Positions 13,305 to 59,540 of a stretch of 64,000 bases of DNA are shown here, piece by piece. Position numbers and translations under genes: made by a program. The notes below the pieces were generated by a model, which had not been told where the DNA came from, did no database searches, and saw nothing but the letters and a program-made list of their open reading frames with translations. Every line of letters starts with the position of its first letter. Position 1 is the first letter of the stretch. Origin of the DNA: an uncultured Alphaproteobacteria bacterium (GTDB lineage: Bacteria > Pseudomonadota > Alphaproteobacteria > Sphingomonadales > Sphingomonadaceae); the NCBI GenBank assembly GCA_903934325.1, contig CAIZNH010000023.1, forward strand, positions 1 to 64,000. Reading direction: 5' to 3'.

Positions 13305-13325
13305 GCGATGTTTGTGCAGCATCGC
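13305..13325 (+). promoter_or_regulatory. Leader hairpin in the alanine dehydrogenase 5' region
   Basis: GCGATG (13305-13310) pairs with CATCGC (13320-13325) around a 9-nt loop, ending just before the GAGGAGAG ribosome binding site of the alanine dehydrogenase gene. The AT-rich stretch upstream (13280-13295) in this divergent region is the likely site of the promoters. A regulatory role for the hairpin is only a possibility. Confidence 0.3.
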
Positions 13326-13337
13326 GAGGAGAGAATC

Positions 13338-14426
13338 ATGCTGGTCGGCGTTCCCAAGGAAATCAAGCCGAGCGAGTTTCGCGTCGGCCTCACCCCCGAA
13401 GCGGTGCGCGAATATGTCGCCGCCGGTCACCGCGTGATCGTGGAAAGTAGCGCGGGCCTCGGCATCGACAAGTCCGATGATACCTATCGCAAGGCCGGCG
13501 CCGAGGTGGTCGATACGGCCGCCGAAGTCTTCGCCCGGGCCGAGATGGTGGTGAAGGTCAAGGAACCGCAGCCCAGCGAATGGGTGCAGCTGCGCGAAGG
13601 CCAGATCCTCTTCACCTATCTCCACCTTGCCCCCGATCCCGATCAGGCGCGCGGGCTGATGGCCTCGGGCGTCTCGGCGATTGCCTATGAAACCGTGACC
13701 GCGCCGGGCGGCGCGCTGCCGCTGCTGGCACCGATGAGCGAAGTCGCAGGACGGCTCGCGATCGAGGCCGGAGCCATGGCCCTGCGCGCCAGCAATGGCG
13801 GGCGCGGCACGCTGATGGGCGGCGTGCCCGGCGTGCTTCCGGCCCGCGTGGTGGTGCTTGGCGGCGGCGTGGTCGGCACGCAGGCGGCGCGCATGGCGGT
13901 GGGCCTTGGCGCGAGCGTCGAGATCTTCGACCGCTCGCTCCCGCGCCTGCGCCAACTCGACGAAATGTTCCAGGGCCGCGCGATCACGCGCTTTTCCACC
14001 GCCGGCACGATCGAACAGGCGGTCGCCCAGGCCGACGTGGTGATCGGCGCGGTGCTGATCCCCGGCGCGAGCGCTCCGCATCTGGTGACCCGCGCCATGC
14101 TGCCCGAGATGAAGCGGCGAGCGGTGCTGGTCGATGTCGCGATCGATCAGGGCGGGTGCTTTGAAACTTCGCACCCCACCACGCACGAAAACCCGACCTA
14201 CGAGGTCGACGGGATCATCCACTATTGCGTCGCCAACATGCCCGGCGCGGTGCCGCTGACGAGCTCCTATGCGCTCAATAACGCGACCCTGCCGTTCGGC
14301 CTTGCGCTGGCGAACAAGGGTCTGAAGGCCTGCGAGGAAGACCCGCATCTGGCCCCCGGCCTCAACGTCCACGAAGGCCGGATCGTCAATGCTGCCGTCG
14401 CAGAATCACTGGGCTTTTCGGCCTGA
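13338..14426 (+). CDS. ald: Alanine dehydrogenase
   Basis: A 362-residue enzyme interconverting L-alanine and pyruvate plus ammonia with NAD. The N-terminus MLVGVPKEIKPSEFRVG carries substrate-binding Arg15; Lys and His of the active site are expected in VKVKEP and YLHLAPD. The Rossmann motif VVVLGGGVVGTQAA sits at about residues 171-184. I chose ATG 13338 because GAGGAGAG precedes it; a longer frame from 13308 lies in the leader hairpin. Its stop codon abuts a perfect parS site. Confidence 0.93.
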   Translation: MLVGVPKEIKPSEFRVGLTPEAVREYVAAGHRVIVESSAGLGIDKSDDTYRKAGAEVVDTAAEVFARAEMVVKVKEPQPSEWVQLREGQILFTYLHLAPDPDQARGLMASGVSAIAYETVTAPGGALPLLAPMSEVAGRLAIEAGAMALRASNGGRGTLMGGVPGVLPARVVVLGGGVVGTQAARMAVGLGASVEIFDRSLPRLRQLDEMFQGRAITRFSTAGTIEQAVAQADVVIGAVLIPGASAPHLVTRAMLPEMKRRAVLVDVAIDQGGCFETSHPTTHENPTYEVDGIIHYCVANMPGAVPLTSSYALNNATLPFGLALANKGLKACEEDPHLAPGLNVHEGRIVNAAVAESLGFSA

Positions 14427-14442
14427 TGTTTCACGTGAAACA
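14427..14442. other. parS: parS centromere-like ParB-binding site
   Basis: TGTTTCACGTGAAACA is a perfect 16-bp palindrome identical to the canonical chromosomal parS consensus bound by ParB/Spo0J proteins. It is embedded in an 18-bp palindrome (14426-14443) that starts on the last base of the ald stop codon. Such sites nucleate ParB spreading and load SMC, and usually cluster near the replication origin. parA and parB are not in this window. Confidence 0.85.
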
Positions 14443-14459
14443 TCGAAGATAAGGGCCCA

Positions 14460-14503
14460 AGTGGCACCTAACTGCCACCCAAGTGCCACCTGACTGGCAC
14501 CCA
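14460..14503 (+). repeat. Four tandem 11-bp repeats beside parS
   Basis: Four consecutive 11-bp units occur: AGTGGCACCTA, ACTGCCACCCA, AGTGCCACCTG, ACTGGCACCCA. The consensus is A-S-T-G-S-C-A-C-C-Y-R. The 11-bp period places each unit on about the same DNA face. They begin 18 bp after the parS core in the ald/FAA-hydrolase convergent gap. No known array family matches that I can name. Confidence 0.75.
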
Positions 14504-14505
14504 AA

Positions 14506-14544
14506 GGGGGTCAAAAAGAGCCGGTTTTGGCCCGGATGACCCCC
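14506..14544. terminator. Hairpin between convergent genes
   Basis: GGGGGTCA (14506-14513) and TGACCCCC (14537-14544) form an 8-bp inverted repeat around a 23-base centre (AAAAGAGCCGGTTTTGG...). It lies between the ends of ald and the FAA hydrolase gene, so it may end transcription in both directions. There is no long T-run. Confidence 0.4.
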
Positions 14545-14554
14545 TGAAGCCCCC

Positions 14555-15565
14555 TCAGACGGCGACCACGGTCTGCTCGATCGCGCCGAAAATCGAGTGG
14601 TTGTGCGTATCGCGCATTTCGATCCGCACCGTGTCACCCGCTGCCATGAAGGGGGTGACCGGCGCGCCGCCCGCGATGGTTTCGATCATGCGGATTTCGG
14701 CGATGCAGGAATAGCCCGCGCCGCCCTCGGCCACCGGCTTGCCCGGGCCGCCATCGGCACCCTTGTTCGAAATCGTGCCGGTGCCGATCACCGTGCCTGC
14801 GCTCAGATTGCGCGTCTTGGCCGCATGCGCCACCAGCTGGGCGAGGTTGAAGGTCGCATCCACCCCTGCATTGGCGCGCCCGAAGGGCTTGCCGTTCAAG
14901 TCCACCATCAGCGGCAGGTGAATGAGGCAGTCCGCCCATGCCTCGCCCAGCTCGTCCGGCGTCACGGCGACGGGCGAGAAGGCGCTCGCGGGCTTGGACT
15001 GGAAGAAGCCGAAGCCCTTTTCCAGCTCTGCCGGAATGAGGCCGCGCAAGGACACATCATTGACCAGCATCAGCAGCTTGATGTGGCCCGCCGCTTCCTC
15101 TGCCGAAACGCCCATCGGCACATCATCGGTGATGCAGGCGATCTCGCCCTCCATGTCGCAGCCCCATGCGGGATCGCCCAGCGGGATGTCTCCGCGCGGC
15201 GGCAGGAACGCATCCGAGCCGCCCTGATACATCAGCGGATCGTGATAGAAGCTGTCGGGCACCTTGGCCCCGCGCGCCTGCCGCACCAGTTCGACATGGT
15301 TGATATAGGCGCTGCCATCGGCCCATTGGTAGGCGCGCGGCAGGGGCGAATGCGCCTGCCTTTCGTGGAACCGCTCGCACGGCACGGTCTCGTGCTCGAC
15401 ATCGCGGGCAAGCACCTCCAGTTCGGGGGCAATTCGGCTCCAGTCATCGAGCGCGGCCTGCAAGGTGGGCGCGATATAGCCCGCCGCGCAGCAGCGGGTG
15501 AGGTCCTTGCTGACCACCACCAGCTTGCCGTCGCGCGTGCCGTTGTTGAGGGTTGCGAGCTTCAT
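14555..15565 (-). CDS. Fumarylacetoacetate hydrolase family protein
   Basis: A 336-residue FAH-superfamily enzyme. Metal-binding acidic residues are visible in MEGEIACITDDVP, and downstream catalytic blocks include LMLVNDVSLRG, LGEAWADC and GTGTISNKG. It most likely cleaves fumarylacetoacetate to fumarate and acetoacetate, the last step of tyrosine/homogentisate degradation. The maleylacetoacetate isomerase gene lies 26 bp upstream on the same strand, which supports that role. GGGAGGA precedes the ATG. Homogentisate dioxygenase is not in the window. Confidence 0.88.
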   Translation of the reverse strand: MKLATLNNGTRDGKLVVVSKDLTRCCAAGYIAPTLQAALDDWSRIAPELEVLARDVEHETVPCERFHERQAHSPLPRAYQWADGSAYINHVELVRQARGAKVPDSFYHDPLMYQGGSDAFLPPRGDIPLGDPAWGCDMEGEIACITDDVPMGVSAEEAAGHIKLLMLVNDVSLRGLIPAELEKGFGFFQSKPASAFSPVAVTPDELGEAWADCLIHLPLMVDLNGKPFGRANAGVDATFNLAQLVAHAAKTRNLSAGTVIGTGTISNKGADGGPGKPVAEGGAGYSCIAEIRMIETIAGGAPVTPFMAAGDTVRIEMRDTHNHSIFGAIEQTVVAV

Positions 15566-58578: not shown

Positions 58579-59004
58579 ATGCTGTCGGAATTCAGGGCTT
58601 TCATCGCCAAGGGCAATGTCATCGATCTGGCAGTGGGTGTGATCATCGGCGCGGCTTTCGGCGCGATCGTCAAGTCGCTCACCGACGAGATCATCATGCC
58701 GCTGATCGGCGCGATTGTCGGCAATATCGACTTCTCTGATCGCTATATCGTGCTGTCGGGCGAGGTTGCGCCGGGCACCTCGCTCGCCGCAGCGCGCGAG
58801 GCGGGGGCGAATGTGCTGGGGTTCGGGGCCTTCGCTTCGGTGGTGATCAACTTCGTGATCCTCGCCTTCGTGATTTTCCTCCTGGTGCGTTATGTGAACA
58901 AGGTGACCGCCAAGCTCGCCAGGCAGCAGGAAGAAGCCGCTCCGCCCGCTGGTCCGACCGAGGTGGAGCTGCTGACCGAGATCCGCGACGCGCTGAAGAA
59001 GTGA
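58579..59004 (+). CDS. mscL: Large-conductance mechanosensitive channel
   Basis: A 141-residue pentameric channel that opens under osmotic downshock. N-terminal helix [21 protein letters not shown], first pore helix [15 protein letters not shown], second helix [19 protein letters not shown], and the C-terminal cytoplasmic helix with [19 protein letters not shown] precedes the ATG. It is divergent from the lemA operon across 172 bp with no other feature I can name. Confidence 0.96.
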
Positions 59005-59068
59005 GGCGATCGGCGGGGGCGCAATTGGTGCGCGGGGGCCGGTTTCCAGACCGGTTTTGGTGTCGAGA

Positions 59069-59080
59069 TAGGTGCCACTT
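59069..59080 (-). repeat. Copy of the 12-bp motif found next to parS at 14427
   Basis: AAGTGGCACCTA (minus strand) is identical to the first tandem unit at 14459-14470. It lies about 40 bp from the parS-like site at 59119. The GGGGGTCA motif (minus strand, about 59091-59098) and the decamer CCGGTTTTGG (59051-59060) are also shared with the first site. Confidence 0.7.
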
Positions 59081-59118
59081 GACCCGCAGTTGACCCCCTG
59101 ATGGGGGACGATTTTCGA

Positions 59119-59134
59119 TGTTTCTCGTGAAACA
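59119..59134. other. parS-like site with one mismatch
   Basis: TGTTTCTCGTGAAACA differs from the perfect site at 14427 in one base; read on the minus strand it is TGTTTCACGAGAAACA, so one centre base pair is lost. Like the first site it is extended by A/T to an 18-bp near-palindrome and followed by CGAA. It lies between mscL and ssrA. Confidence 0.55.
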
Positions 59135-59161
59135 TTCGGGCCGTTTGCGGGGCTCGTGCAC

Positions 59162-59189
59162 TTCACATTCAGGTTTGGCGCGCTATATC
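59162..59189 (+). promoter_or_regulatory. Possible ssrA promoter
   Basis: TTCACA (59162-59167), a 16-bp spacer and TATATC (59184-59189) precede the ssrA acceptor segment. The -10 is close to consensus and the spacing is acceptable; the start point would be near 59196. Confidence 0.4.
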
Positions 59190-59540
59190 CATCCTCGCCG
59201 GTTTCGGTCGGCTATGGCGATAAACTGCTGCGTGCAATAGACGCAACGGACCCGGGGGCAGTACCCGGCGGCTCCACCAGAAGCGGCGTTTCGGCGCAAC
59301 TCCTGACGGGGCCGAACTAGGATCGACGTGTGTTGAAAAGCGTAGTTTTTGCCCGGGCTGAGTAACCCGCATAAGGCTCAAAAACCATAAGTGCCAACGA
59401 CAACGAAGCACTTGCTCTCGCTGCGTAATGTGACGGCCTAACGGCCTGAATTTACAAAGCCTAGAGCACGGTTCGGACCGAACCGGGTAACAGAATCGGA
59501 AACCGGGGGCCCGGGGGAGCCTAGCAACAGAATCCCCCAC
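59190..59540 (+). ncRNA. ssrA: Two-piece (circularly permuted) tmRNA
   Basis: tmRNA rescues stalled ribosomes and tags the nascent chain. The gene is permuted: the acceptor piece comes first and ends GGCTCCACCA at 59279, then a spacer (59280-59307) that is removed, then the coding piece beginning GGGGCCGAACTAGGATCGACG at 59308. GGGGCCG (59308-59314) pairs with CGGCTCC (59270-59276) as the acceptor stem with one G-U pair. The tag frame GCC...TAA at 59393-59428 encodes ANDNEALALAA. The outer ends are approximate. SmpB is not encoded here. Confidence 0.95.

Follow-up and report, generated by a model that had tools for sequence, protein, structure and literature searches.

The window, that is, the whole stretch of 64,000 nucleotides that was analysed, belongs to a draft genome of 2.83 Mb in 44 contigs (G000; other G-numbers denote comparison genomes) and carries two parS-like sites. 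Site 1 is an exact parS, TGTTTCACGTGAAACA, at 14427..14442, to which no strand is assigned. It lies directly 3' of the stop codon of the alanine dehydrogenase gene ald (13308..14426, + strand; NCBIfam TIGR00518, 495 bits, over the cut-off). An 11-bp-phased array follows at 14459..14520 on the + strand, reading GGCACCTAACT GCCACCCAAGT GCCACCTGACT GGCACCCAAAG GGGGTCAAAAA, and a repeat search detected three copies in it at a spacing of 11 bp. The gene on the array side, a member of the fumarylacetoacetate hydrolase family (14555..15565, - strand; Pfam PF01557 and PF18288), converges with ald. Site 2 is the palindrome TGTTTCTCGTGAAACA at 59119..59134, again with no strand and with one mismatch to the consensus. 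Its 11-bp-phased array is at 59047..59098 on the - strand and runs, counted from parS, through GGGGTCAACTG, CGGGTCAAGTG and GCACCTATCTC and further units to an end near GGTCTGGAA. A GGGGTCA pair is found in it at 59080-59097 if one mismatch is allowed. The array-side neighbour is mscL (58579..59004, + strand; NCBIfam NF010557 and TIGR00220), and the parS-side neighbour is a permuted alphaproteobacterial tmRNA gene, ssrA (59158..59519, + strand), as delimited by Rfam RF01849 (59158-59504) and ARAGORN (59184-59519). The tag of this tmRNA is ANDNEALALAA.

A preliminary description of this DNA had listed short motifs shared by the two sites, and all of the motif positions were confirmed at both. 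The 12-mer AAGTGGCACCTA is at 14459 (+) and 59069 (-), within the arrays of site 1 (14459-14470) and site 2 (59069-59080). These are its only copies without mismatch in the 2.83-Mb genome; one mismatch adds two further copies, one of which is 28 bp from another parS. The motif GGGGGTCA occurs three times in the window, twice at site 1, where 14506-14513 lies in the array, and once in the array of site 2 (59091-59098), and CCGGTTTTGG occurs once per site. The motif order does differ between the sites, as had been claimed, because the 12-mer and GGGGGTCA are both units of one 11-bp array. The claim that orientation differs was only partly borne out. Since parS is palindromic, the 12-mer and the GGGGGTCA nearest to parS have the same polarity relative to it at both sites; CCGGTTTTGG is indeed opposite at the second site, and an additional GGGGGTCA at site 1 (14537) is inverted. 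CCGGTTTTGG does not belong to the lattice; it was counted 3 times near parS and 0 times in parS-free intergenic DNA, numbers too small to be of use. Flanks are unrelated, and a simple duplication of one locus was rejected on this ground, in agreement with the preliminary description. GC-skew, suggested there for placing the origin, gave no clear origin within the window, and the origin cluster of parS is on a different contig.

A search of the whole genome for parS with one mismatch allowed found 35 exact and 5 one-mismatch sites, and the control with the reversed pattern gave 1 match. Under a simple base-composition model, about 7e-5 exact sites are expected by chance. Six of the sites (5 exact and 1 near) form the usual origin cluster, which spans mnmE, mnmG and rsmG just ahead of parA and parB, the canonical locus; the other 34 are dispersed. 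The genome thus has ParA, identified from its sequence and location, and ParB, identified from family matches, together with a matching origin cluster, and the palindromes of the window fit this system exactly at site 1 and with one mismatch at site 2. The origin parS sites (L057 4087-7600) lie inside the reading frames called for mnmE, mnmG and rsmG or at their ends, where they are read, for example, as NVSRET or MFHVKH. Two sites are 38-39 bp apart in the origin cluster, and the same is seen at C44:42094/42132. The counts below use 33 dispersed sites, the non-origin ones among 39 that were read, with a one-mismatch site on contig C8 left out; 6 of these 33 lie within genes. Both window sites read as members of this family of dispersed chromosomal parS.

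The motifs around the dispersed sites were compared with an intergenic background consisting of parS-free DNA from the window and 220 kb of other stretches. GGGGTCA occurred 31 times in the 7,260 bp within 110 bp of the 33 dispersed parS and twice in 33,502 bp of background, a density about 70 times higher near parS. Counted by site, 19 of the 33 had it, compared with 2 of 79 intergenic stretches 100 bp or longer (Fisher p = 9e-11), so that the motif is far from equally frequent where parS is lacking. The proposed "repeated vocabulary" of motifs around ParB-type sites therefore holds, and it extends far beyond two sites, through the genome and across much of the clade. Judged by sequence, the vocabulary amounts to an array on one side of parS, made of 11-bp units and in phase with the edge of the palindrome. 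Oriented alignments give a single lattice, parS followed by 11-bp blocks, of which a clear example comes from G139: parS, TTGCCGCAAGA, GGGGTCTAAAG, GGGGTCTAAGG, GGGGTCTAGGA.

The score of an array was taken from three GGGGTC units, spaced at a fixed distance and lying no more than 110 bp from parS (maximum 18), and a value of at least 14 was taken as an array. This score was reached by 42 of 55 sites in G121 (all its non-origin sites), 13 of 20 in G142 (20 of 76 sites fetched), 12 of 33 in G000, 2 of 20 in G152 (20 of 30 fetched) and 15 of 19 sampled from the 49 in G139, two of which were fetched on one side only. Random windows of the own genome reached it in 2 of 4,000 cases. Site 1 scores 11 and site 2 scores 12, both below 14; the low value for site 1 comes from scoring an array mainly of GGCACC-type units against GGGGTC. 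An array on both sides of parS was never seen among the sites scored in G121, G142, G000 and G152. The optimum is sharp at a period of 11, and autocorrelation peaks at 11 in all four genomes examined. G152 has a different unit by eye, and its autocorrelation is still highest at 11 (0.331 vs 0.265 background). Among sites scoring at least 13, unit starts fell no more than 1 bp from a multiple of 11 off the parS edge in 120 of 131 cases in G121, 43 of 45 in G142 and 24 of 35 in G000.

The association also holds when it is approached from the array. With overlapping triples counted separately, 22 of 28 array matches in G121 and 16 of the 25 matches listed (of 71) in G139 had a parS no more than 150 bp away, always 5' of the array as read on the G-rich strand and never 3' of it. 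Among thirty loci chosen by the array pattern alone, which include at least 3 pairs that are the same locus, 22 had a parS-like sequence (up to 3 mismatches) on the 5' side of the array and the other 8 had none. Arrays without parS account for 6 of the 28 matches in G121 and 9 of the 25 listed in G139. The own genome has eight GGGGTCA clusters with 11-bp spacing (L036-L043) and no parS-like sequence, at up to 5 mismatches, within about 100 bp. None of the origin parS has an array, neither the 6 in G000 nor the 8 in G139 (scores 8-13). Since the origin sites carry none, the array marks the dispersed sites and not the centromere itself. The preliminary description had spoken of a composite segregation element. 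Its composite nature, parS plus array, stands, and a role in segregation is plausible, with the qualification that the origin parS, the sites credited at present with segregation, carry no array. Two further ideas about the array were set aside. A KOPS-like signal of replication direction is ruled out by the lack of bias in G121, where 26 arrays point against the fork and 23 with it. A G-quadruplex was considered as the conserved feature, and GGTGCCA-like units and the G152 unit would not form one.

Next, the distribution of dispersed parS among relatives was surveyed. Of 119 genomes of the family, with one or two per genus in most cases, 118 have 0-3 exact copies, compared with 35 in the own genome. 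Within the genus, 61 genomes, some of them incomplete, were searched with up to 2 mismatches, and they fall into 30 with 11-89 sites and 31 with 1-6 sites, with none between; the reversed-pattern control gave 0-2. Of the 30 many-site genomes, 20 have the array triple (up to 1 mismatch), and of the 31 few-site ones none has it (Fisher p = 5e-9). In a tree built from 30 ParB proteins, 15 from each group, the 15 many-site genomes fall into one clade (support 99/96) with the few-site genome G154 as sister. In the ParB helix-turn-helix (HTH), V178 and D179 are each present in 14 of 15 many-site proteins and in 0 and 2, respectively, of 15 few-site proteins. A one-residue insertion at position 110 is seen in 15 of 15 many-site and 0 of 15 few-site proteins (L128-L157), and the extra residue precedes a conserved GERRWRA stretch.

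Outside this group, a search of 387 genomes of the class found four others with more than 10 exact parS: G370 (78), G356 (18), G488 (18) and G347 (13). At 34 exact sites in 16 loci of these genomes, no array score reached 13, and they apparently represent separate cases of parS multiplication. In G370 and G488, parS are partly in tight clusters, 33-37 bp apart (L243-L258). The composite pattern was also searched for in a named genome collection, which may omit records of the own or very near genomes. It returned one other record, LNED01000038.1 (Sphingomonadales bacterium Ga0077531 MAG), probably because GGGGTCA in its exact form is a unit dialect that few species use. In this record (L056 6255-6310), the parS palindrome is extended to GCCCTGCCGATGTTTCACGTGAAACATCGGCAGGGC.

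The evidence on the reader of the sites comes from ParB itself and from parS variants. Each of the 30 genomes tested has one strong ParB match, and the own ParB has ParB_N, HTH and C-terminal domains. No second ParB-like match at E <= 1e-3 was found in 8 of the 15 many-site genomes, the own genome included, and 7 of 15 have more; a dedicated second ParB was rejected as a general explanation on these counts. The strongest evidence is from G139, where TGTTCCACGTGGAACA, with both half-sites changed symmetrically, is found at 7 of the 8 origin and 45 of the 49 dispersed sites; the site total for this genome is a lower bound, as sites more than 2 mismatches from the query are invisible. In G121 and in the own genome, TGTTTCACGTGAAACA predominates in both classes. 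Because TGTTCCACGTGGAACA is common to the origin and dispersed sites of G139, so that the dispersed sites there share the variant of their own origin, the simplest reading is that the same protein, ParB, would read both classes.

The position of the sites was examined in closed genomes, since the own genome is a draft; distances to the origin come from G121 and G139. The 55 non-origin sites of G121 (3.09 Mb) are uniform from origin to terminus (KS p = 0.88), and those of G139 are spread over its chromosome, so the dispersed sites are not confined to the origin domain. The loci of G121 paired with the window sites, at 139,614 and 184,019, are about 0.8 Mb from the origin at 952 kb. Exact sites in G121 show no clear thinning toward the terminus (KS p = 0.26), and one-mismatch sites lie nearer to it (p = 0.002). 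In the presumed terminus region (G121:C1 2.40-2.86 Mb), 7 of 8 sites have one mismatch, e.g. TGTTTCATGTGAAACA, and elsewhere most are exact. Two G000 sites (L002, L026) paired with near-terminus sites of G121 are exact. The density in the closed genomes is about one site per 55-60 kb. When the origin cluster is counted as a single locus, G121 has 56 loci, no two of them closer than 8.3 kb, and G139 has 50, no two closer than 11.6 kb (P < 0.001 vs random for both smallest gaps). Such mutual spacing would be expected if each ParB domain extended over several kb, so that a second site nearby would be of no use or would do harm. The own genome breaks the rule: one pair on C44 is separated by 38 bp and one on C30 by 433 bp. 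The variation of gaps is weakly below random (P = 0.12 in G121; 0.02-0.07 in G139 for three assumed lengths, the true 2.98 Mb being between the first two).

To compare orthologous places, sites were paired by a flanking-gene homologue on the same side and strand. Between G000 and G121 this gave 26 pairs (24 G121 sites; both flanks homologous in 10), among them both window sites with one flanking gene each. The mean parS identity was 0.99, and the adjacent 20 bp were at 0.32 and 0.38, near chance. Five other genome pairs gave parS identities of 0.96-1.00 vs 0.27-0.51 for the 20-bp flanks. These data are best met by selection acting on dispersed parS at the paired places while the flanks are saturated. 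Array polarity was the same in 19 of 19 pairs in which both scores were at least 13 (six genome pairs). At scores of at least 12, 26 were the same and 2 opposite, and one of the opposite pairs is window site 2. A rule of conserved polarity was rejected, as the pattern of the strong pairs is broken at this mscL-tmRNA site. In the mscL-tmRNA interval, parS (up to 2 mismatches) is present in 9 of 26 readable many-site genomes, the own genome included, and also in G132, and it is absent at that threshold in 17 of the 26 and in 3 of 3 few-site genomes. The array there points toward mscL in G000, G158 and G151 and toward the tmRNA in G139, G134, G129, G132, G121, G169 and G142 (L098-L127). These opposite orientations imply that the element in this interval was inverted or gained more than once.

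The array units differ between genomes. GGGGTCA and GGGGTCT stand at 21:7 in G000, and the ratio of GGGGTCT to GGGGTCA is 62:27 in G121, 36:0 in G142 and 31:2 in G139. Paired arrays of G000 and G121 are about as alike (0.418) as unrelated ones (0.406), and likeness within a genome is 0.46-0.49; in the closer pair G121-G142, paired arrays are at 0.555 vs 0.494 for others. It follows that, over longer times, the units of a genome evolve together, which could be due to a changing reader or to gene conversion.

Four other explanations were weighed. The location of the sites is what brings a transcription terminator into question, in which the palindrome would fold into a hairpin and Rho would bind to the C-rich strand of the array, between the 3' ends of convergent genes. 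Convergent junctions hold 28 of the 46 classified intergenic sites in G121 and 13 of 22 in G000 vs 22 of 140 background junctions of at least 30 bp, the background being the own genome for both and the genes being called by codon score rather than annotation. C-rich RNA with an 11-nt period would also suit Rho. Complementarity past the 16 bp, however, fades toward chance after about 4 bp on each side, the palindrome is fixed in sequence and not merely in pairing, and neither the variant shared with the origin parS nor the 11-bp register is expected of a terminator, which leaves this explanation very improbable. The version with a long hairpin, an intrinsic terminator with an extended stem of variable sequence, was rejected since complementarity ends about 4 bp beyond parS. 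We give even less credence, in fact hardly any, to regulatory sites of a transcription factor that is unrelated to ParB and has a motif equal to parS by chance. The 11-bp direct repeats do resemble the sites of winged-helix response regulators, but the identity and the shared variant with the origin parS argue against it, and so does the position of the sites, which is mostly off promoters (2 of 22 classified sites in G000 and 3 of 46 in G121 lie between divergent genes). The likeness of sites within a genome raises the question of a selfish or mutation-driven repeat, a short parS-array cassette that would be spread and homogenised by recombination and have no host function. Pairs of parS plus array that are 75-89% alike over 45-99 bp number 84 in G121, 23 in G142 and 19 in G000, and such a cassette would also account for genome-specific dialects, for G000-G121 arrays that are no closer when paired and for opposite orientations in one interval of different species. 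Next to mobile or palindromic repeat families (REP, MITE), whose copies are alike over an element with defined ends, the sites show this likeness of parS and array, flanks close to chance and no further shared ends. Nevertheless, the likeness stops at parS and array, with flanks at 0.28-0.31 and the far side at 0.28-0.30 on average. In addition, the constraint on parS amid saturated flanks, the greater likeness of paired arrays in G121-G142, the variant common to origin and dispersed sites in G139 and the mutual avoidance of sites in two closed genomes all speak against a cassette without function, and we hold it to be improbable.

The remaining alternative is distributed nucleoid occlusion, in which dispersed ParB-parS complexes would keep the division machinery off the nucleoid through a putative MipZ-ParB interaction, by analogy with Noc and its sites, NBS. 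NBS are scattered over Firmicutes chromosomes, and the even spread and mutual spacing of the dispersed parS in two closed genomes would fit such a role. However, the N-terminal part of ParB keeps the motif LGKGLGALLGE, which we take to be the ParA-stimulating peptide, and not a Noc-like helix. The protein scores 196.5 on the Noc model against a cut-off of 315. In addition, the exact sites do not thin clearly toward the terminus, one-mismatch sites lie nearer to it, and the array is left unexplained. In favour of the idea, Caulobacter ParB is described as recruiting MipZ (PMC5815017), and Noc is described as derived from ParB and reading its own NBS (PMC7333895). On balance, we consider distributed nucleoid occlusion unlikely.

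Our preferred reading, to which we assign a probability of roughly 60%, is that the dispersed sites load ParB for chromosome-wide organisation and that the array provides a docking lattice for a second, putative protein. We infer binding and function at the dispersed sites from sequence comparison. The own ParB would nucleate at every dispersed site as at the origin, and a second putative DNA-binding protein would polymerise on the 11-bp lattice along the same helix face and dock against ParB. The 11-bp register implies that an occupant of the array would be on the same helix face as ParB and would start from it. Docking would give each dispersed site its polarity and set it apart from the origin cluster, and the absence of arrays at the origin suggests a tag that separates two classes of sites. 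SMC condensin is known to be loaded at origin parS. The ParB complexes, at about one per 55-60 kb, may serve as distributed loading or anchoring points for it and so organise the chromosome arms; segregation would remain the role of the origin cluster, which is dense and free of arrays. The outcome may be SMC loading, anchoring or nucleoid occlusion. Against the loading-site reading, array strength is uneven among genomes and neither window site reaches a score of 14; arrays also occur away from any parS, polarity can differ between relatives, and there is turnover in the mscL-tmRNA interval. Further counter-evidence is that the own genome breaks the spacing rule, that a few of its dispersed parS lie within genes, that the arrays are indifferent to replication direction and that the four other alphaproteobacteria rich in parS lack arrays at the 34 sites scored.

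A wider version is more tentative, and we would sooner doubt than accept it as a whole. It holds that there may be two centromere-type classes, a bare origin cluster and dozens of dispersed parS that head an 11-bp lattice, with a unit dialect co-evolving with its reader, distributed loading of ParB and perhaps condensin, and a polarity set by the lattice. If true, bacteria would have a parallel to diffuse centromeres and their rapidly evolving satellite arrays. Origin-proximal parS has been treated as a rule with a mechanism, and the clade described here breaks the rule. With 11-89 parS beside relatives of the same genus that have 1-6, it offers a natural experiment on why parS clusters, on ParB/SMC loading off the origin and on how cells distinguish loading sites from the centromere. 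The array is a concrete handle on a putative partner of ParB, and the scattered parS hint at another way to organise a chromosome.

Several reports describe how closely parS is tied to the origin elsewhere. According to one, the vast majority of parS lie within an origin domain that makes up 20% of the chromosome (PMC7022226), and the richest cases named in another have up to 20-23 parS near the origin (PMC7333895). Scattered parS are attributed to few lineages only and are described as counterproductive through SMC collisions (PMC8357415). In Caulobacter, parS is reported to be tolerated or to work only in about 500 kb around the origin, and the harm done by ectopic parS to depend on its place (PMC5815017). 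For P. aeruginosa, the corresponding range is given as about 650 kb. Because parS is confined in this way in both species, it would be surprising if 30-80 scattered sites served segregation. In the open-licence literature searched, we found no earlier description of the arrays or of such dispersion.

The sites of this clade are like known chromosomal ParABS sites in their identical 16-bp palindrome and in the canonical parAB locus with mnmE-mnmG-rsmG. They differ in that there are up to 89 of them (up to 2 mismatches), that they cover the whole chromosome in closed genomes and that they often carry arrays. The arrays themselves can be compared to the 11-bp iterons of ParR-parC from plasmid R1 and to the 11-bp direct repeats of OmpR/PhoB-type (winged-helix) sites. 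They share with both the direct repeats of 11-bp period on one helix face; in contrast to both, they are in register with parS, are dispersed over the chromosome and have a unit that varies between species. Noc-NBS of Firmicutes is similar in having scattered ParB-type sites. However, NBS is described as unlike parS and as read by a dedicated paralogue (PMC7333895), whereas here the site is parS itself and the own genome has a single ParB match at E <= 1e-3. P. aeruginosa is reported to have hundreds of extra genome-wide ParB contacts (PMC7022226), a likeness that ends with their being 7-bp half sites, whereas the sites here are full palindromes, many kept in place and joined to arrays. Bacillus subtilis also has several parS well off the origin, but these are reported as eight over about 0.75 Mb (PMC8357415), compared to 55 non-origin sites around the 3.09-Mb chromosome of G121.
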